Part shown: one piece after another, positions 5,967 through 43,408 of the stretch
Layout: the number at the start of each line of letters is the position of its first letter
Position numbering within the stretch: the first letter of the stretch is position 1
Assembly (NCBI GenBank): GCA_018646865.1
Contig: JABGTW010000022.1
Coordinates: 1 to 45,722, forward strand
Source: Cryomorphaceae bacterium
GTDB lineage: Bacteria; Bacteroidota; Bacteroidia; Flavobacteriales; Flavobacteriaceae
Reading direction: 5' to 3'
Length of the DNA: 45,722 nt
The notes under the pieces: model-generated
What the model was told of the DNA's origin: nothing
Seen by the model: only the letters and a program-made list of their open reading frames with translations
Database searches by the model: none
Translations under genes and position numbers: made by a program

Positions 5967-5977
5967 AGTAATTAGTT

Positions 5978-5985
5978 TAAATTTA
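5978..5985 (+). promoter_or_regulatory. Probable -7 promoter box TAAATTTA for rlmN
   Basis: TAAATTTA is one base off the TAnnTTTG consensus and lies eight bases before the rlmN ATG. It is back to back with the divergent SDR promoter box. Confidence 0.4.
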
Positions 5986-5993
5986 CCCTCGAA

Positions 5994-7037
5994 ATGAAAA
6001 TTGATATTAGAAGTTTATCTGAAGATCAAATAATCGAATTTTTTGAACAAAAAGGATTTGATTCTTACAGAGGTAAACAAGTTTATGAATGGATTTGGAA
6101 AAAGTCGACTTATTCTTTTGATGAAATGACAAATTTATCTAAAGATCTTAGATTTATGCTAGACACAAATTTTGTGATTAATCATATTGAAGTTGATAAA
6201 ATTCAAAAAAGCTCAGACGGGACAATTAAAAATGCGGTAAAGCTTTTTGATGACTATACAGTTGAATCTGTTTTGATTCCAACTAATGATAGAACTACTG
6301 CATGTGTTTCTTCTCAAGTGGGTTGTAGTCTTGATTGTAAATTTTGTGCTACATCCAAATTGAAAAGAATGCGAAATCTTAATCCTGATGAAATTTATGA
6401 TCAGGTTGTAACAATTAACAACCAAAGTCTAAAATATTTTAAAAGATCTCTGTCAAATATTGTTTTTATGGGTATGGGTGAGCCATTAATGAATTATAAT
6501 AACCTGATAGAATCAATTGAAAAAATATCATCAGATAAGGGTCTTAATATGTCCCAGAAGAGAATTGTAGTTTCAACTTCAGGAATTCCTAAAATGATAA
6601 AAAAACTTGCTGATGAAGATTTAAAAGTTAATCTAGCACTTTCACTTCACTCAGCCTTAGAAGAGACTAGGAATAAGATAATGCCATTTTCAACAAAATT
6701 TTCATTAGAAGATATTAAAGAGTCTTTATTGTATTGGTATTCAAAAACTAAAAGAAGAATAACATTTGAATATATAGTATGGAAAGGTATAAATGATAGT
6801 GTTGATGACATAAATGCATTAGTAAACTACTGTAAATCTATTCCATCAAAGGTTAATCTTATCGAATATAATTCGATTGGTGATGAAAATTTTACATCTG
6901 CAAGTCAAAGTATGATAGACCTTTATAAAGATTTATTAGAAAAAAATAAAATTACTGTAACTGTTAGAAGGTCAAGAGGAAAAGATATTGATGCAGCATG
7001 TGGTCAGTTAGCAAATAAAGAAGTTAGTTTAAATTAA
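5994..7037 (+). CDS. rlmN: 23S rRNA (adenine(2503)-C(2))-methyltransferase / tRNA methyltransferase RlmN
   Basis: A radical-SAM enzyme of 347 residues that adds a C2 methyl group to A2503 in 23S rRNA, and in some bacteria to A37 of certain tRNAs. The 4Fe-4S cluster cysteines are Cys111, Cys115 and Cys118 (CSLDCKFC). The two catalytic cysteines are Cys104 (TTACVSS) and Cys336 (DIDAACGQL), with the same seven-residue offset from the cluster as in E. coli RlmN. The MGMGEPL motif for SAM binding follows. Full length and intact. It ends five bases from the convergent protease gene. Confidence 0.96.
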   Translation: MKIDIRSLSEDQIIEFFEQKGFDSYRGKQVYEWIWKKSTYSFDEMTNLSKDLRFMLDTNFVINHIEVDKIQKSSDGTIKNAVKLFDDYTVESVLIPTNDRTTACVSSQVGCSLDCKFCATSKLKRMRNLNPDEIYDQVVTINNQSLKYFKRSLSNIVFMGMGEPLMNYNNLIESIEKISSDKGLNMSQKRIVVSTSGIPKMIKKLADEDLKVNLALSLHSALEETRNKIMPFSTKFSLEDIKESLLYWYSKTKRRITFEYIVWKGINDSVDDINALVNYCKSIPSKVNLIEYNSIGDENFTSASQSMIDLYKDLLEKNKITVTVRRSRGKDIDAACGQLANKEVSLN

Positions 7038-35157: not shown

Positions 35158-38100
35158 TTAGTTTATAGCTCCAATCCCAATTTTCCACAATTTTGAATTT
35201 AAATCAGGAAGATCAGTATCAATAATCTGATCTATTTCTTTTTTCAAACTTTCCCAGCTATCATCTAAATCCTTTAATGATTTTAAAATTCCCTTACTAA
35301 CATTTGGAATATCGCCTTTTATTTCATCTAAAATAAACAAGTAATCTGCTAAAAATTTATTTGGAAAATTTTCAACATCATCATAAGCTAATGATTTTCT
35401 CTGCATCATCTTTTTATCCCAGGCGTCCATTTTGCTAAGTAATGATTTACCATTATTTTTAACGTCTTCATTATCTTTAATATTCTTAATTACTTCAGTG
35501 AGTCTGTTAATTGAACTTATATTATTATTAATGTATTCAGCCATTTTATTAAATTTCTTTTCCATATGACTAGTGTATTTATCAAATTCAGCATAATCTA
35601 TATCTGACACATTGAAGTTCGGGTTTTTTAAGATTTCAAAGTTTGAAGTATATGATTTTTCTCCTACCTCTAGTGATATTTTATATTTTCCAGGAATAGC
35701 TTTATGTCCGCTGAACCTACCTTCTATATATGCATATGGAACACCAATTAATGACTTATGCCTTGTATTCCAAACAAATCTATTCAAACCAATATTATTT
35801 GTTAATACAGGCTCTCTAGATGGACCTCCATTATAAGAAATGAAGTTTTTATTAGTTTGATTATTAATTTCTCTAATTAATTTATTGTTTTCATCATAAA
35901 TTTTAACTGTTAGTTTCTGATCATGATCACCCTCATTTAGGTTATAATATATAACAACCCCATTAGCAGGATTAACTCCAGTGAATGTCGATGTTCCATC
36001 TGAATAATTTGAATTAAGTTGACTGTACCAATTTCCTATAGTAGAATTCTCTGGGTTAAAAAGTCTCGTTTCTTTGGTATCATCCATTTGTCTAATCAAT
36101 CCCATATCATCTAGGATCCAAAATGATCTACCTTGAGTTGCAACAATTAAGTCATCATGTTTTATCATTAAATCAGTAACAGCTAAAACAGGCATGTTAA
36201 GGTTAAATCTTTCCCAGCTTTTACCATCATTAAATGAAATATAAACTCCTAACTCAGTACCAGCCAATAGTAAACCTTTTCTTACCTCATCTTCTCTTAC
36301 AACTCTAGTATATGCTCCATATGGAATATTACCAGTAATTTCTTTCCAAGACTCTCCATAGTTTGTTGACTTATATAATCCTGGAGATTTATCATTAAAT
36401 TTATATCTAGTAGTTGCAATATATACTGTTTCTTTATCATGAGGAGATATATCAATTGCATTAATTATTGTTTCAGGGAGGCCTCTAGGTGTGATATTTT
36501 TCCATGTTTTACCACCATCTTTAGTCAAATGAACGAGACCATCATCAGATCCAGTATAAATGGTATTAGGCTCGTGCGGTGATTCTATAACATAACTTAT
36601 TGTTCCATAGTTTTCAGCTCCAACAGCTTCATTTGTATATGGTCCACCACCGTTGCCTTGTTTTTCATCTTCATCCATTGTTAAATCTGGGGATACTACT
36701 TCCCAAGATTTCCCAAAGTCTTTTGTTTTGAATAGGTGCTGAGCAGCGTGATAAAATGTATTTGACTCATGTTGAGACCAAATTATAGGTGCATTCCAGT
36801 TGAACCTATATTTCATGTCTCTTGATGCTTTACCAATATAATTTATTGGCTCTATCATTACTTTTTTTCTAGCCTTAGCTTTTGTATCATATATATTTAC
36901 ACTTCCAAGATAGCTACCTCCCATTACTAATTGTGGATCATCAGGATCAAAAGCTAAAAAAGCACTTTCACCACCCGCTGACGCAGACCAATCACTTTGA
37001 GAAATTCCTCCCCTTGAGCCAATACTAGCTATTTTAACAGTTGAATTATCTTGTTGACCCCCATATAAATTATATGGGAACAAATTATCTACATTTACCC
37101 TGTAAAACTGAGCTGTTGGCATAATATTAATACTAGACCATGAATTTCCATTATCAAAAGTTATTTCACCACCACCATCATCAGATATTATCATATTTTT
37201 TGAGTTTTTTGGATTTATCCACAAGTCATGATAGTCTCCATGACCACTTGAAATTCTTTCCCATGTTTTACCTCCATCTATAGATCTAAAAGTCCTGGCG
37301 CTTAAAACATATACTGTATTTTCATCATTAGGATCTGCAAATACTTCTATGTAGTACCAAGCTCTTGAGGTTAACTCAGCATACTTACTTACTCTAGACC
37401 AACTTTCTCCAGCATTATTAGACATAAATAATCCACCTAATCTTTTATCTGAATCACTTTCAGCTAAAAGATATACTTTATCTGAGTTAGCTCTTGATAC
37501 TGAAATTGCCAATTTTCCTAATTCATTGGGTAAGCCATTTTCTATTTTAAACCAATTATCACCTCCATCTGTTGATTTATAAACGCCACTTCCTTCCCCT
37601 CCAGAAATTACCTTCCAAGGCAATCTTTGATGTTCCCAAATTGTTGCGTAGAGAACCTTAGGGTTATTATAGTCAATTGATAACTCTGAGGCTCCACTTA
37701 ATTCATTAACAAAAAGAACATTTTTCCAGGACTTTCCACCATCTGTTGATTTATATATTCCTCTTTCTTTAGTTGGACCATTTATGGCCCCTTGTGCAGC
37801 TATATATACTATATTAGGATTGTCAGGATGAATTATAATTCGAGAAATTTGTTGAGTATTTTCTAAGCCAATATGTTCCCATGTTTCTCCAGCATCTGTT
37901 GATTTATAAATTCCATCTCCATAGGATGTTGTAACCCCTCTTGGTGCATGTTCACCCATACCAACATAAATTATTCTACTATCACTTTCTGACACAGCTA
38001 TGGCCCCTACCGATGAAGTTTTAAAATAGTCATCTGATATATTGAACCACTCACTCCCTGCATTAGTTGTTTTCCATAGTCCTCCTCCAACAGTTCCCAT

Positions 38101-38268
38101 ATAGTAAGTTAAGGGATCATTTATAACACCTACTGATGAAACAGATCTCCCACCTCTAAAAGGACCTATATTTCTATACTTAACTTCTTCAAGTTTTTCT
38201 TCAATATCTTGAGAATAAGAAAATGGAATTACAGTTAAGAAAACAAAAAAAATGCTTAAATTTTTCAT
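35158..38268 (-). CDS. Secreted BNR/VPS10-type repeat protein (glycosyl-hydrolase-like)
   Basis: A 1036-residue exported protein with a Sec signal ([15 protein letters not shown]). The body consists of beta-propeller repeats with Asp-box motifs: [48 protein letters not shown] and SFNDGKSW. The layout matches the large Bacteroidetes WD40/YVTN/BNR proteins often annotated as sortilin-like or glycosyl hydrolases. The catalytic residues of sialidases are not evident, so an enzymatic role is unproven. A FlgD-like or Ig-like domain (about 745-880) and a helical C-terminus follow. No type IX sorting domain is seen. It ends five bases from the DUF4295 gene. Confidence 0.85.
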
Positions 38269-38340: not shown

Positions 38341-39948
38341 ATGAGAAGTCAAAACATCCAAAGAGACTTAAGTCTAGTAGGAGATGATCTTATAAAGAAA
38401 TTTATATTGAAGGATAGTAAAGCTTCTAAATATGTGAACTCTTTTTTTAGTGAGGAAAATATTTTAAATCATTCAAAAAATAAAACGACTCAATTTAAAG
38501 ATGATCAAAGAAATATTTTAACAGAAGAGTTAACTAAACAGTACTCAAAAGTAGAAACTTCAGATGCAACATTAGAAAATATTAAATTACTCTCAAACCC
38601 TAACACACTCTCTGTAACTACTGGCCATCAACTTAATATATTTTCTGGACCATTAATGGTTATCTATAAAATTGCTCAAGTAATCTCTACAACTAACTAT
38701 TTGAACTTAAAGATTAAAAACTTTAATTATGTTCCTGTTTTTTGGATTGCTAGTGAAGATCATGATTTTGAGGAAATATCAGAAGTTAATCTTCATAAAA
38801 ATAAGATTAATTGGAAACTTGATTCAAAAAATTTACCAGTAGGAGAAATAAAATTAAATGATTTTAAACAAGTAAAAAGTGCTTATAAAAATTCAATTAT
38901 TGATTTTGAATATAAAGATAAACTTGAAAGTATAATTGATGATGCATATAAAGATGGAGAGACTTTGTCGACTGCAAATATTAAATTTATAAATTCATTG
39001 TTTGCAGGACATGGACTCGTAATTATTGACTCCAATAGAAGAGTTTTTAAGAAAACTTTTTTAGATAACTTTAAAAATGAAATTTTAGATTCAAGATGTT
39101 ATGTCGACTCAAATTCTCAAATTTCAAAAATTAAGAATGATATAAAATCTTTTAAACCTCAGGTTAATCCATCTGACATAAACTTTTTTAAGATTACTAA
39201 AAATGGAAGAAAAAGAATCAGGAAAAATGGAAAAAAATTTATTGTTGACGATGAAGATGAATACACATTAGATGAAATAATTAATCAAATTGAATCTTAT
39301 CCTGAGTTGTTTTCACCTAATGTTTTAATGAGGGCTTTATATCAAGAGAAAATTCTTCCAAATGTATGTTATGTTGGCGGTCCTAACGAATTAAAATATT
39401 GGATGCAACTAAAGCTTTATTTTGAAAATTCCAGCGTTCAATTTCCAATTTTAAAACTTAGAACTTCTGCATTTATTTTAGATAAAAAAACATCTATTAA
39501 AATCACTAAGAGTAATATTGAAATGAAATATTTTTTTGGAAAATTAGATGATTTACTAGACTTTAAAATTAATACCTCATCTAAATTAAATTTAAGTTTT
39601 GATTCTTTAAAAACTACATTGACTAATCAATTTGATGAATTAAGAAGAGTTTCAATTAAAACAAATGAATCATTTATTGGCGCATTAAATGCTCAAGAAA
39701 AAAAACAAATTAAAGGTTTAGTTGATCTTGAGAAAAAATTAAGAAAAGCTGAAAAGAAAAATCATGAAACAGAAGTAAATAAGATTAAAAGTCTTTTTGA
39801 ATCACTTCACCCTAATGATAGCGATCAAGAGAGATACCTGAATTTTGGTAATTTTTATTCATTCAAAGGTCAAGAATTAATTGATTACATAGTTGATAAA
39901 GTGCTGATTTCAGATGATAAAATATTAGTTATAAATCTTGAAGATTAA
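38341..39948 (+). CDS. bshC: Bacillithiol biosynthesis cysteine-adding enzyme BshC
   Basis: A 535-residue protein recognised by VTTGHQLNIFSGPLMVIYKIAQVI, NYVPVFWIASEDHDFEEI and NVCYVGGPNELKYWMQL, with a coiled-coil-like C-terminal region rich in Lys and Glu (EKKQIKGLVDLEKKLRKAEKK). BshC adds cysteine to glucosaminyl-malate in the last step of bacillithiol synthesis, the low-molecular-weight thiol of many Bacteroidetes and Firmicutes. No bshA or bshB is in the window, which is usual. A TATATTTA box lies 13 bases before the ATG. guaA follows 21 bases later from its own promoter. Confidence 0.92.
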   Translation: MRSQNIQRDLSLVGDDLIKKFILKDSKASKYVNSFFSEENILNHSKNKTTQFKDDQRNILTEELTKQYSKVETSDATLENIKLLSNPNTLSVTTGHQLNIFSGPLMVIYKIAQVISTTNYLNLKIKNFNYVPVFWIASEDHDFEEISEVNLHKNKINWKLDSKNLPVGEIKLNDFKQVKSAYKNSIIDFEYKDKLESIIDDAYKDGETLSTANIKFINSLFAGHGLVIIDSNRRVFKKTFLDNFKNEILDSRCYVDSNSQISKIKNDIKSFKPQVNPSDINFFKITKNGRKRIRKNGKKFIVDDEDEYTLDEIINQIESYPELFSPNVLMRALYQEKILPNVCYVGGPNELKYWMQLKLYFENSSVQFPILKLRTSAFILDKKTSIKITKSNIEMKYFFGKLDDLLDFKINTSSKLNLSFDSLKTTLTNQFDELRRVSIKTNESFIGALNAQEKKQIKGLVDLEKKLRKAEKKNHETEVNKIKSLFESLHPNDSDQERYLNFGNFYSFKGQELIDYIVDKVLISDDKILVINLED

Positions 39949-39966
39949 TTTATAGTTGTATTTTTG
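39938..39966 (+). promoter_or_regulatory. guaA promoter (TTG-N18-TATTTTTG)
   Basis: TTG at 39938-39940, an 18-base spacer and TATTTTTG at 39959-39966 form the best complete Bacteroidetes promoter in the window. The -7 box ends three bases before the guaA ATG and lies inside the bshC-guaA gap. Confidence 0.65.
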
Positions 39967-39969
39967 CCC

Positions 39970-41499
39970 ATGCAAAATAAAGTCTTAATAGTTGATTTTG
40001 GATCTCAATATACTCAGCTTATAGCAAGAAGAATTAGGGAGTTATTCATTTACTGTGAAATCTCACCTTTTAATAACATTCCAGAAAATCTAGATCAGTT
40101 TAAGGCAGTTGTTTTATCAGGCTCACCGTTCTCTGTCAATCAAAAAGACTCTCCTGATATTAATCTTGAAATTTTTTTAGGTAAAAAACCTGTTATTGCA
40201 ATTTGTTATGGGGCTCAATTAATTGCTAAGAGTTTAAATGGCAATGTAGAAAATTCAAATTCAAGGGAGTATGGTAGGGCAAAACTTTCTTTTATAGACA
40301 GAGACTGCATATTATTCAAGAATATTAACATAAATAATCAAGTCTGGATGAGTCACGGAGATACTATTACTGCATTACCAGATGAAGCAAAACTTGTAGC
40401 AAGTACAGATTCTGTTATAAATGCGGCTTATAGTATTGAGTCTTTAAATTTATACGCTTTGCAATTTCATCCTGAAGTTTTTCACTCAGAAAATGGCTTG
40501 AAAATTTTTGAAAACTTTTTTATTAATGAGTTGAAATTTATTAAAGAATGGAATCCAGAATCTTTTATAGATAGAACTGTAGATGATTTAAAGACTAAGC
40601 TCAAAGACGATAATGTTATATTGGGTTTATCAGGTGGTGTCGATTCTAGTGTAGCAGCTGTACTTTTAGATAAAGCTATTGGAGATAATTTGTATTGCGT
40701 ATTTGTAAATAATGGACTTTTAAGAAAAAATGAATATGAAGAAGTTTTAGAACAATATATTGGAATGGGTCTAAATGTAAAAGGGGTAGATTCCTCAAAA
40801 TTATTTATAGAATCTTTAAATGGAGTAACTGATCCAGAAAAAAAGAGAAAAATAATAGGTAATATGTTTGTAGAAGTATTTGAGCAAGAGTCTAAAAAAA
40901 TAAAAAATGCAAAGTGGTTAGCTCAAGGAACAATCTATCCAGATGTAATAGAATCAATATCAGTAAAAGGTCCATCAGCTACAATAAAATCTCATCATAA
41001 TGTAGGTGGTCTTCCTGAGAAAATGAATCTTAAAGTAGTTGAACCATTAAAAATGCTATTCAAAGATGAAGTAAGAAGGATAGGTAGATCACTAAAAATG
41101 GATTCAGAAATTTTAAATAGACATCCTTTCCCTGGACCTGGTCTTGGTATAAGAATTCTTGGAGAAGTTGATTCTGAAAGTGTAAGGCTTATTCAGGAGG
41201 CTGATAAAATTTATATTGATGGACTCAAAGAGTGGGACTTATACGATAAAATATGGCAAGCAGGTTCTATATTGCTTCCAGTAAAAAGTGTAGGAGTTAT
41301 GGGTGATGAAAGGACATATGAGAGATGTGTGGCATTAAGGGCAGTAATTTCAACTGATGGAATGACTGCAGATTGGTTTGAATTTCCAAATAACTTTTTA
41401 AAAGAAATTTCTAATAGGATAATTAATAAGGTATCAGGAATTAACAGAGTTGTTTATGATATTAGTTCCAAGCCGCCTGCAACTATTGAGTGGGAATAA
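39970..41499 (+). CDS. guaA: GMP synthase (glutamine-hydrolysing)
   Basis: Converts XMP to GMP in purine synthesis. From the ATG at 39970 it has 509 residues. A TTG at 39964 lies in the promoter box and is rejected. The class I glutaminase half has Cys79 ([10 protein letters not shown]) and the His167/Glu169 pair (LQFHPEVFH). The ATP-pyrophosphatase half has the P-loop [11 protein letters not shown] (220-230) and [16 protein letters not shown]. The end [11 protein letters not shown] is standard. The next gene starts one base after the stop. Confidence 0.97.
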
Positions 41500-41500
41500 A

Positions 41501-42013
41501 ATGACTGATTTCAATATTTCTTTTAAACCAATGTTGACTCCAAAAGCAATGCTTGAAAAAGGAATTTTTGGTGGAACATATTTTAATCAATTAGTCGATT
41601 ACAGAATATTCCCTAAAAATTGGTTTTCCGATTTAGACAAAAGTTATTTTTTGTCAAATAATTATGATAAAAAAATTAATTACTTTAAAATAAAATCAGG
41701 TCAATCTCAAGAAGAGTGGGAGGCAAAAGGTTGGATTAATAAAGATGATCCAAGAGGGTGGTTTGAGTGGTATTGTAAGTATTTTAATGGAAGACGACAT
41801 GAGGATGATGAAAGGCAAATTAAAAGATGGTTGGCTTTCTGTGGTCCAAAGGGGAGATTTAGAAACTCTATTTATAATAAGATTTATAAATCTGGATTAG
41901 GAATTGAAAATTCAAAAAGTATTTCACCTAGAATTCAGCAGTCTTTGTTACATTGGTCCTATATTGTGAATAATGAAGATTATGAAAGATGGAAACTTGA
42001 AAAGCAAAAGTAA
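41501..42013 (+). CDS. Conserved protein of unknown function (170 aa)
   Basis: I place the start at ATG 41501 (MTDFNISFKPMLTPKAMLEKG), right after guaA; an upstream in-frame ATG at 41450 lies inside guaA. The protein is soluble and aromatic-rich, with a block that looks strongly conserved: GWINKDDPRGWFEWYCKYF, NGRRHEDDERQIKRW and FCGPKGRFRNSI. The Arg/Asp/Trp clusters suggest nucleic-acid or phosphate binding, but no catalytic motif is recognised. I recall similar proteins in other Flavobacteria and in some eukaryotes, but I cannot name a function. It abuts guaA and the LysM gene without gaps. Confidence 0.8.
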   Translation: MTDFNISFKPMLTPKAMLEKGIFGGTYFNQLVDYRIFPKNWFSDLDKSYFLSNNYDKKINYFKIKSGQSQEEWEAKGWINKDDPRGWFEWYCKYFNGRRHEDDERQIKRWLAFCGPKGRFRNSIYNKIYKSGLGIENSKSISPRIQQSLLHWSYIVNNEDYERWKLEKQK

Positions 42014-43408
42014 ATGAAGAACTTTACTTTTTCCATATTATTATTAATGTTATTTCAGACAATACATTCTCAGAATATTGTTTCGGATACAATTCTGCAT
42101 GATGTAGAAAGAAAAGAAACATTATTCTCAATTTCAAAAAGATATGGTATTAACGTAAACGATATATTAAAGTTAAATCCAAATTTAAGAGATTCTAGGC
42201 TTAGAAGAAGGTCAACAATCTTAATTCCAATTTTTAAATCAAATAAAGATAATTCCTTAATAATAAAAGATTCAATAGAAGGGTCAGTTAATGTTTCTTC
42301 AAAATTAGACTCGTTATATATAAAAAAAAGAAAAAAAAACAACCAATTAAATGTGTCTGTTCTTTTACCTTTTAGATCAGCAACTTTAAATTATGATTCA
42401 ATTCAGGAAGTGGAATCTTTATTTGAAGACAGAAATCTTTATACAATAGCTTTGGATTTTTATTCTGGTATTTTATTTGCAATAGAGGATTTAAAACAAT
42501 TAAAAGTTTCAGTTAATCTTAATGTTTTTGATACTGAAAACTCTAGAAATAAGATATTAGAAATATCTAAAAACGAGAATATTAACAACTCAGATGTTAT
42601 AATTGGCCCATTGATTCCAAGAAATTTTGAAACTTTTTCAAATTTTGAATTTTTAGAGGCTATTCCTAAAGTTTTCCCATTATCTACAATTCCTATTCAA
42701 ATTATTAAAGGTGTAGTTCAGACTGTAACTCCGAGAAAACTTTTAAGAGAAAGAATGTTATCTTATTTAGATAAAAATATTGATAGAGAAGAAAATATTG
42801 TAATTATAGCGGATTCTTTAAATAAAGATATTGAAAGTAAATTAGTTAATATTTTTCCTAAAGCTATAAAGATAAAACCTGAGTTTGAGGGGTATATTCT
42901 TCCAGAGCTTTTGGACTCTCTTTTAGTCGACTCTCTTCCAAACAAGGTAATTATTGAGTCTGAAATATTTACCTTAATTTCAAGTGTAGTTTCACAACTT
43001 AATTCTCAAATAACTTCTGAACGTGATGTTAGATTATATACTACTTACAGGGGGAATCAATATGATGATCCAAGTATTAATGTTAAAGATCTTGGAAATT
43101 TAAGTTTTACTTACAGTTCTATTTCAAAAAAAACAAACAATGATTCTATTTCAAAATTTGAAAGCAATTACATTAAATTATTTGGAAGCTTTCCTAATAA
43201 GGATATCATCCGAGGTTATGATGTAACTAAAGATATTTTAATTAGAGTTTTAATTGATAATAATTTAAATAAAACCGTTAAATATGATGAGCAATTTTAT
43301 ACTGAATCTAAATTTTTATATAAAAAAGATAGCCTTGGAGGATTATATAACTCATCTATTTTTCTTCTGAAACATAAAGATTATGGACTTGAGGAGATTC
43401 TTGACTAA
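42014..43408 (+). CDS. LysM and periplasmic-binding-like exported protein
   Basis: A 464-residue exported protein: Sec signal (FSILLLMLFQTIHSQ), then one LysM domain at about residues 28-73 (HDVERKETLFSISKRYGI, NVNDILKLNPNL, STILIPIF) that binds peptidoglycan. The remainder (from about 111, NVSVLLPFRSATLN, then FYSGILFAIEDLK and SDVIIGPLIPRNF) resembles a type-1 periplasmic-binding protein, as in LpoA-like and branched-chain amino-acid receptors. Bacteroidetes genomes often carry this protein between guaA and pyrG. A cell-wall-linked role is inferred. It starts directly at the previous stop codon. Confidence 0.82.
   Translation: MKNFTFSILLLMLFQTIHSQNIVSDTILHDVERKETLFSISKRYGINVNDILKLNPNLRDSRLRRRSTILIPIFKSNKDNSLIIKDSIEGSVNVSSKLDSLYIKKRKKNNQLNVSVLLPFRSATLNYDSIQEVESLFEDRNLYTIALDFYSGILFAIEDLKQLKVSVNLNVFDTENSRNKILEISKNENINNSDVIIGPLIPRNFETFSNFEFLEAIPKVFPLSTIPIQIIKGVVQTVTPRKLLRERMLSYLDKNIDREENIVIIADSLNKDIESKLVNIFPKAIKIKPEFEGYILPELLDSLLVDSLPNKVIIESEIFTLISSVVSQLNSQITSERDVRLYTTYRGNQYDDPSINVKDLGNLSFTYSSISKKTNNDSISKFESNYIKLFGSFPNKDIIRGYDVTKDILIRVLIDNNLNKTVKYDEQFYTESKFLYKKDSLGGLYNSSIFLLKHKDYGLEEILD

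Follow-up and report, generated by a model that had tools for sequence, protein, structure and literature searches.

A small conserved protein of bacteria and phages as a possible stand-in for DNA photolyase

What is the role of a strongly conserved protein of 170 residues that is squeezed between guaA and a gene for a LysM protein, and that matches no characterized family in the databases searched? We encountered its gene in a DNA stretch of 45,722 nucleotides of a Cryomorphaceae bacterium (assembly GCA_018646865.1, contig JABGTW010000022.1, positions 1 to 45,722; further called the window). The first-pass annotation, made from the sequence alone, described the ORF as conserved, tightly packed against both neighbours and carrying three dense conserved-looking blocks (among them GWFEWYC and CGPKGRF). 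It took the Arg/Asp/Trp pattern as a hint of nucleotide or nucleic-acid binding and the guaA linkage as a hint of a purine-related role, and considered the function open. The observation was confirmed: the ORF starts with ATG, has the described position, length and spacing, and contains the three motifs. The interpretation was only partly supported, as explained in the following. The features are collected in Table 1; handles starting with G and L denote the genomes and loci that were compared.

Table 1. Features of the window and of two compared loci (window positions unless stated otherwise)
Position	Strand	Feature	Basis or remark
41501..42013	+	170-aa protein (P0001) of an undescribed family	ORF analysis; relatives in genomes, phages and plasmids; AlphaFold2 model
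41522..41581	+	N-terminal conserved block, residues 8-27 (FKPMLTPKAMLEKGIFGGTY)	F8, P10, P14, G21, G25, Y27 identical in 64 of 64 representatives
41747..41830	+	central conserved block, residues 83-110 (DPRGWFEWYCKYFNGRRHEDDERQIKRW)	G86, W87, W90, G97, R98, R99, D103, R109 identical in 64 of 64 representatives
41939..41956	+	C-terminal conserved block, residues 147-152 (QSLLHW)	Q147 and W152 identical in 64 of 64 representatives
39964..41499	+	guaA, upstream neighbour, one base away	context only, shared within the genus; gene name from the first-pass annotation
42014..43408	+	LysM-protein ORF, downstream neighbour, no gap	context only; LysM label from the first-pass annotation
38341..39948	+	535-aa ORF upstream of guaA, resembling BshC (bacillithiol synthesis)	putative
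35158..38268	-	1036-aa ORF with repeated Gly/Trp-rich segments, sortilin/Vps10-like	putative, by eye
L181, 21-4072 (G318, same genus as the window)		run of genes: SRPBCC-like, SDR, DASH cryptochrome and a 496-aa cryptochrome-like protein	next to a MurA-like gene that in other genera (L192, L182) adjoins class-I-like photolyase; the photolyase seems lost from its usual place
L052, about 5971-6552 (phage pVa-21, KY499642.1)		phage copy of the gene	largely unannotated in the record; only the ends of two hypothetical proteins touch it

We first asked whether the conservation is more than chance. In the window's own assembly (1.3 Mb, 82% complete) the gene occurs once. A scan of genome contigs gave 37 loci that encode a relative (58-89% identity), and in 64 representatives below 80% identity, 35 of the columns that are filled in at least 70% of the sequences are at least 90% conserved. 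These include seven tryptophans (W41, W73, W78, W87, W90, W110, W152), the fully invariant N60, R98, R99, D103, R109 and Q147, and C92 (59 of 64); Trp makes up 4.7% of the residues on average. The mean pN/pS against ten relatives from the genus was 0.135, which is near that of guaA (0.124), below that of the LysM gene (0.226) and above that of pyrG (0.075, nine relatives). The order guaA - ORF - LysM was retained in 29 of 29 loci of the genus that were examined, although some of these represent the same species twice and the gap to guaA varies (about 240 bases in locus L008).

We then searched for a known family or fold, since a match to a characterized family would have overturned the initial reading. 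Nothing significant was recovered from Pfam, NCBIfam and PHROGs, either for P0001 or for samples of its relatives, or from the PDB sequences. The weak lines that were not taken as evidence were: HTH_NPRL3 (E 0.076), DUF6191 (0.25), DUF7872 (0.046), Phi92_gp137 (PDB, 0.77) and an AIG2-like protein (PDB, 0.3). In PHROGs the best E-value for P0001 was 0.14, and of eight relatives only L063 gave a weak hit (phrog_29432, of unknown function, E 0.002). A Pfam scan of P0001 and 23 members of the alignment recovered neither the FAD-binding (PF03441) nor the N-terminal (PF00875) photolyase domain up to E 1, no match to the pyrimidine dimer DNA glycosylase family (PF03013), and no flavin-binding family was matched. 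The AlphaFold2 models of P0001 (pLDDT 87.1, pTM 0.82) and of a viral member of the type 2 described below (83.5 and 0.79) are mainly helical, and neither matched a solved fold: Foldseek against the PDB, which holds many photolyases, gave no match with E below 7 for either model, and VIA-align on 37 chains gave nothing. In BFVD a single unnamed viral protein was matched (A0A6B7ERE2, 233 aa, no function given; E 1.1e-6, TM 0.63 to the model, 25% identity), which is probably a phage member of this family, whereas the other 17 rows had an E of 0.9 or worse.

The relatives are found mostly in marine bacteria. The 37 loci comprise 20 flavobacterial ones (82-89% identity) and 17 others (58-70%), in records titled Gammaproteobacteria, SAR86, Alphaproteobacteria, Rhodospirillaceae, Marinimicrobia, Gemmatimonadetes/Longimicrobiales and Dehalococcoidia/Dehalococcoidales, that is five phyla. 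We call these type 1. More distant relatives with an extra N-terminal motif (about NDKMQ..Y.Y; type 2) were found in: viral contigs; 15 phage records; 49 plasmid records, mostly of Sinorhizobium and Rhizobium; 34 of 337 genomes of the class of G389, an alphaproteobacterial MAG by its title (one of the 34, G389 itself, is type 1); 8 of 321 genomes of the class of G390 (SAR86; one is type 1); 1 of 201 genomes of the Chloroflexota set, the query's own genome; and 4 of 296 genomes of the window's phylum, one of them the window's own genome and one only a fragment. The small alphaproteobacterial genome G730 has two matches (contigs C21 and C24), the second at a contig end, which could reflect a paralogue or an assembly effect. 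In a tree of 96 sequences, for which the bootstrap had not settled and many deep forks are open, the flavobacterial type-1 proteins form one clade (100/99) within type 1, next to Gemmatimonadota, which points to horizontal transfer. The viral sequences fall in several places, and L063-L065 are very divergent members (branch 3.8) with a shared set of neighbours.

Within the window's family the gene is a genus-wide acquisition: it was found in 22 of 25 genomes of the genus, in 0 of 36 genomes of other genera of the family, and in 2 of 39 genomes of the rest of the order set, the latter two being type 2. That it was inserted into a pre-existing guaA-LysM operon is likely, though only inferred. 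A purine role is not supported, because relatives outside the genus have other neighbours and the genome-wide signal described below concerns photolyase, not purines; a GuaA-like ORF at about 3 kb in one gamma locus (L159) was the only other case noticed. An all-against-all BLAST of the neighbours found no family in more than five loci and most neighbourhoods look unrelated, so that adjacency alone was a weak lead, and the photolyase idea developed below rests chiefly on the genome counts and on a few gene slots. As some relatives lie near light or UV genes, we asked whether the carriers have photolyase.

In a mixed set of 80 genomes, PF03441 was found in 4 of 49 carriers and 18 of 31 alphaproteobacterial non-carriers (p 1.7e-6), and PF04244, the second photolyase-related family, in 4 of 49 and 9 of 31. 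In the full set of 337 alphaproteobacterial genomes, searched with both queries, PF03441 was found in 4 of 34 carriers and 198 of 303 non-carriers (Fisher, p 1.3e-9). Of the four, G465 and G520 have only partial matches to the family; leaving out all four carriers with partial matches (G465, G476, G520, G692) gave 2 of 30 against 198 of 303 (p 2e-10). TspO, taken as a control, showed no bias (15 of 49 against 8 of 31, p 0.8). For the alphaproteobacteria of 2 Mb or less in the set of 80, the counts were 0 of 10 and 10 of 15 (p 0.001), so that small genomes as such are not the cause. These p-values overstate independence, as the shared ancestry of the genomes is not corrected for; moreover, in some genomes only part of the first-look candidates was scored, the completeness of these genomes is not accounted for, and the counts do not cover class-II photolyases as recovered through PF00875. 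The complementarity is also not absolute: three of the 49 carriers hold a full class-I-like gene (G394, G399, G512), and 105 of the 303 non-carriers lack both genes, so photolyase can be lost without gaining this one.

A simple photolyase-negative rule had to be rejected for the window's genus, because PF03441 is present in 19 of 25 genomes, 17 of them among the 22 carriers. In G318 these members are a DASH cryptochrome (above the TIGR02765 cut-off), a 496-aa protein with only weak similarity to cryptochrome models, and a 482-aa member nearest in the PDB to RE11660p, a (6-4) photolyase. What was not seen in any of the 25 genomes is the class-I-like type (433 aa in G327 and G346, nearest PDB entry 1tez, photo-lyase type I), which was found in 31 of 36 other genera. 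The class-I-like type was defined by an E of 1e-69 or better and a frame of 426-503 aa, and types were checked by NCBIfam or PDB on samples only; the class-I cut-offs of NCBIfam were not reached by any sample, while the DASH cut-off was reached for L181 and L192. The window's genus counts as about one event. In another genus (g178), G357 carries the family and has no PF03441, while G369 lacks the family and has a class-I-like gene. No such swap was seen in the genus of the Flavobacteriales carrier G362, where G383 has only a weak PF03441 member of 375 aa.

We then inspected the gene neighbourhoods more specifically. In three alphaproteobacterial carriers, G707 (L125), G618 (L127) and G401 (L133), none with a PF03441 or PF04244 match, the gene lies with genes encoding an ECF sigma factor, a ChrR-type anti-sigma factor, DUF1365, a FAD-containing amine oxidase and a lipocalin, and in two of them with CFA synthase. 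The arrangement is ChrR-ECF-DUF1365-FAD oxidase / CFA-lipocalin-family gene in L125 and L127, which are close kin in the tree, and DUF1365-FAD oxidase / ECF-ChrR-family gene-lipocalin in L133 (domains confirmed by Pfam on L125 and, for ChrR, on L133). These were compared with the photolyase regions of 40 non-carriers, taken from the top of the list, and with 33 control regions from the same group of genomes: DUF1365 and the FAD oxidase have matches in 18 of 40 photolyase and 0 of 33 control regions, and CFA synthase in 20 and 1, respectively. In the 18 regions these genes accompany photolyase, in 17 of them in the row PHR - FAD oxidase - DUF1365 - CFA. The lipocalin was not found in the 40 photolyase regions, but it does adjoin photolyase in G512 (L188). 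RpoE, released from ChrR, activates the photolyase gene phrA and cfaS in Rhodobacter sphaeroides, and a fasciclin gene is listed in that regulon (PMC7074977); the passages of that review that were seen do not describe the present protein.

In G362 (locus L163; 99% complete, no PF03441 or PF04244) the gene lies in an apparent operon with a homologue of T4 endonuclease V. The order, with short gaps, is: GSHPx, Pterin_4a, SDR, the family gene, Flavin_Reduct, Pyr_excise (T4 endonuclease V family), NAD/DUF2867, an SRPBCC-like ORF, one further ORF and PMSR. GSHPx, SDR, NAD/DUF2867 and the SRPBCC-like ORF match genes of the photolyase cluster of G327 (L192), the NAD/DUF2867 gene with 57% identity over 401 aa. 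The resemblance is partial in the marinimicrobial locus L028, which has a rhodopsin, a MerR-type regulator with a weak B12-binding match and, about 3 kb away, Pyr_excise. Further associations were: a MerR regulator with a B12-binding domain next door (L162), a BLUF protein and TspO (L132), TspO next door (L137), and TspO next door with an annotated fasciclin gene nearby (three rhizobial plasmids). On two rhizobial plasmids (L056, L058) the order is XRE regulator - fasciclin - DUF378 - TspO - family member, and a similar XRE and a fasciclin-like gene also lie upstream in L132. Most loci, however, show nothing of the kind: a light, UV or photo-oxidative marker lies within 5 kb in 11 of 61 cellular loci, against 0 of 33 control regions (p 0.007) and 0 of 16 viral loci. 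This comparison is circular and is not used as evidence, since nine of the 11 loci supplied the markers; among the other 52 loci the number is two, one of them close kin of a source.

In phages the gene directly follows ribonucleotide reductase genes (YerA41), precedes thymidylate synthase (pVa-21), lies about 4 kb upstream of dCTP deaminase (Carin-5), or has unknown neighbours. The copy of YerA41 is annotated 'structural protein', but 63 particle-associated proteins, DNA enzymes among them, have been reported for this phage (PMC7354516), so this need not mean a building block of the virion.

The simplest account of the counts and gene slots is that the family does what CPD photolyase does, or makes it dispensable: a new small, Trp-rich family that would work in the repair (or direct tolerance) of UV-induced lesions, most likely cyclobutane pyrimidine dimers, and take the place of class-I CPD photolyase in bacteria that lack it. 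What the analysis itself establishes is the conservation and horizontal spread of the family, its strong anti-correlation with photolyase in one large set, without correction for phylogeny, and its position, in a few lineages, among genes that otherwise accompany photolyase or next to a pyrimidine-dimer glycosylase homologue. That the function is the same, that it consists of UV-lesion repair, and that the protein acts on DNA (conserved Arg/Asp/Gln/Trp) are inferences from genomes and sequences alone, and any activity, cofactor or need for light would be hypothetical. We hold this reading of UV-lesion repair or direct tolerance with no more than moderate confidence. A photolyase of entirely separate origin, in which 150-170 residues would reverse the dimers with light, either through electron transfer from an excited Trp of the seven conserved ones or through a small bound chromophore, and which would be used in the sunlit ocean by bacteria and carried by phages, is speculative and considered unlikely, though not excluded; an excited Trp is reported to split dimers inside E. 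coli photolyase. With respect to class-I CPD photolyase, the similarity lies in the proposed role, the complementary distribution and, in a few lineages but not in most loci, the gene neighbourhood, whereas the protein has 170 aa (against 427-480 aa in the samples read), no domain or fold match and no known flavin site.

Other explanations remain possible but appear less likely. The protein could respond to light or photo-oxidative stress without repairing DNA (for example by handling a photosensitiser, tetrapyrrole, flavin or oxidized lipid) and be kept in the same regulons as photolyase, the anti-correlation then reflecting niche or lineage. The neighbours TspO, ECF-ChrR, CFA synthase, lipocalin, GSHPx, PMSR, BLUF and the fasciclin-annotated genes agree with this view, which is nevertheless doubtful: TspO itself is not anti-correlated with photolyase carriage in the same 80 genomes, the ECF/ChrR cluster of three carriers lacks photolyase specifically while it is kept in 18 of 40 non-carriers, and Pyr_excise is a neighbour in two loci. 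Similarly tentative is the possibility that the anti-correlation is a statistical artefact of a few related, streamlined lineages that lost photolyase and happen to carry the gene. The uncorrected kinship and the partial scoring of candidates leave room for it, but the pattern holds in alphaproteobacteria of 2 Mb or less, in Bacteroidota and in 8 of 9 type-1 genomes of other phyla tested, and the gene-slot evidence is independent of counting.

The nucleic-acid binding suggested by the first-pass annotation is compatible with the invariant Arg, Asp and Gln, the many Trp and the phage copies beside nucleotide-metabolism genes, and a role in nucleic-acid or nucleotide metabolism unrelated to UV, used also by phages during replication, could be envisaged. 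It would not explain the photolyase pattern or the gene slots, and is considered unlikely. As a sub-case of the preferred reading, the protein might be a dark repair enzyme (a glycosylase or nuclease analogous to T4 endonuclease V) instead of a direct-reversal enzyme. The small, mainly helical model and the Pyr_excise neighbours in L163 and L028 would fit, but P0001 has no PF03013 match, the N-terminal residues vary so that there is no conserved N-terminal nucleophile of the endonuclease V kind, and a glycosylase already sits next to the gene in two loci; it is considered the least likely of the alternatives.

No paper on this family was found in the literature searched, which does not cover papers outside that library, including preprints. 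The Global Ocean Sampling study describes many photolyase, UVDE and DenV homologues (PMC1821046), but names no family of this kind in the passages seen, and a review on the effects of sunlight describes photolyase as the enzyme of photoenzymatic repair in bacterioplankton (PMC3661993). The family and its predicted fold are new to every library searched, whereas the proposed function is of a known sort but would be of separate origin. CPD photolyase is treated as the way by which sunlit microbes reverse their main UV lesion, yet many carriers, among them a genome titled SAR86 and genomes titled Marinimicrobia and Gemmatimonadetes, have no photolyase-domain gene that the search could find. If an unrelated small protein does this job, there would be a second solution to a textbook problem, a new DNA-repair fold, and an explanation of how such cells and their phages stand the light.
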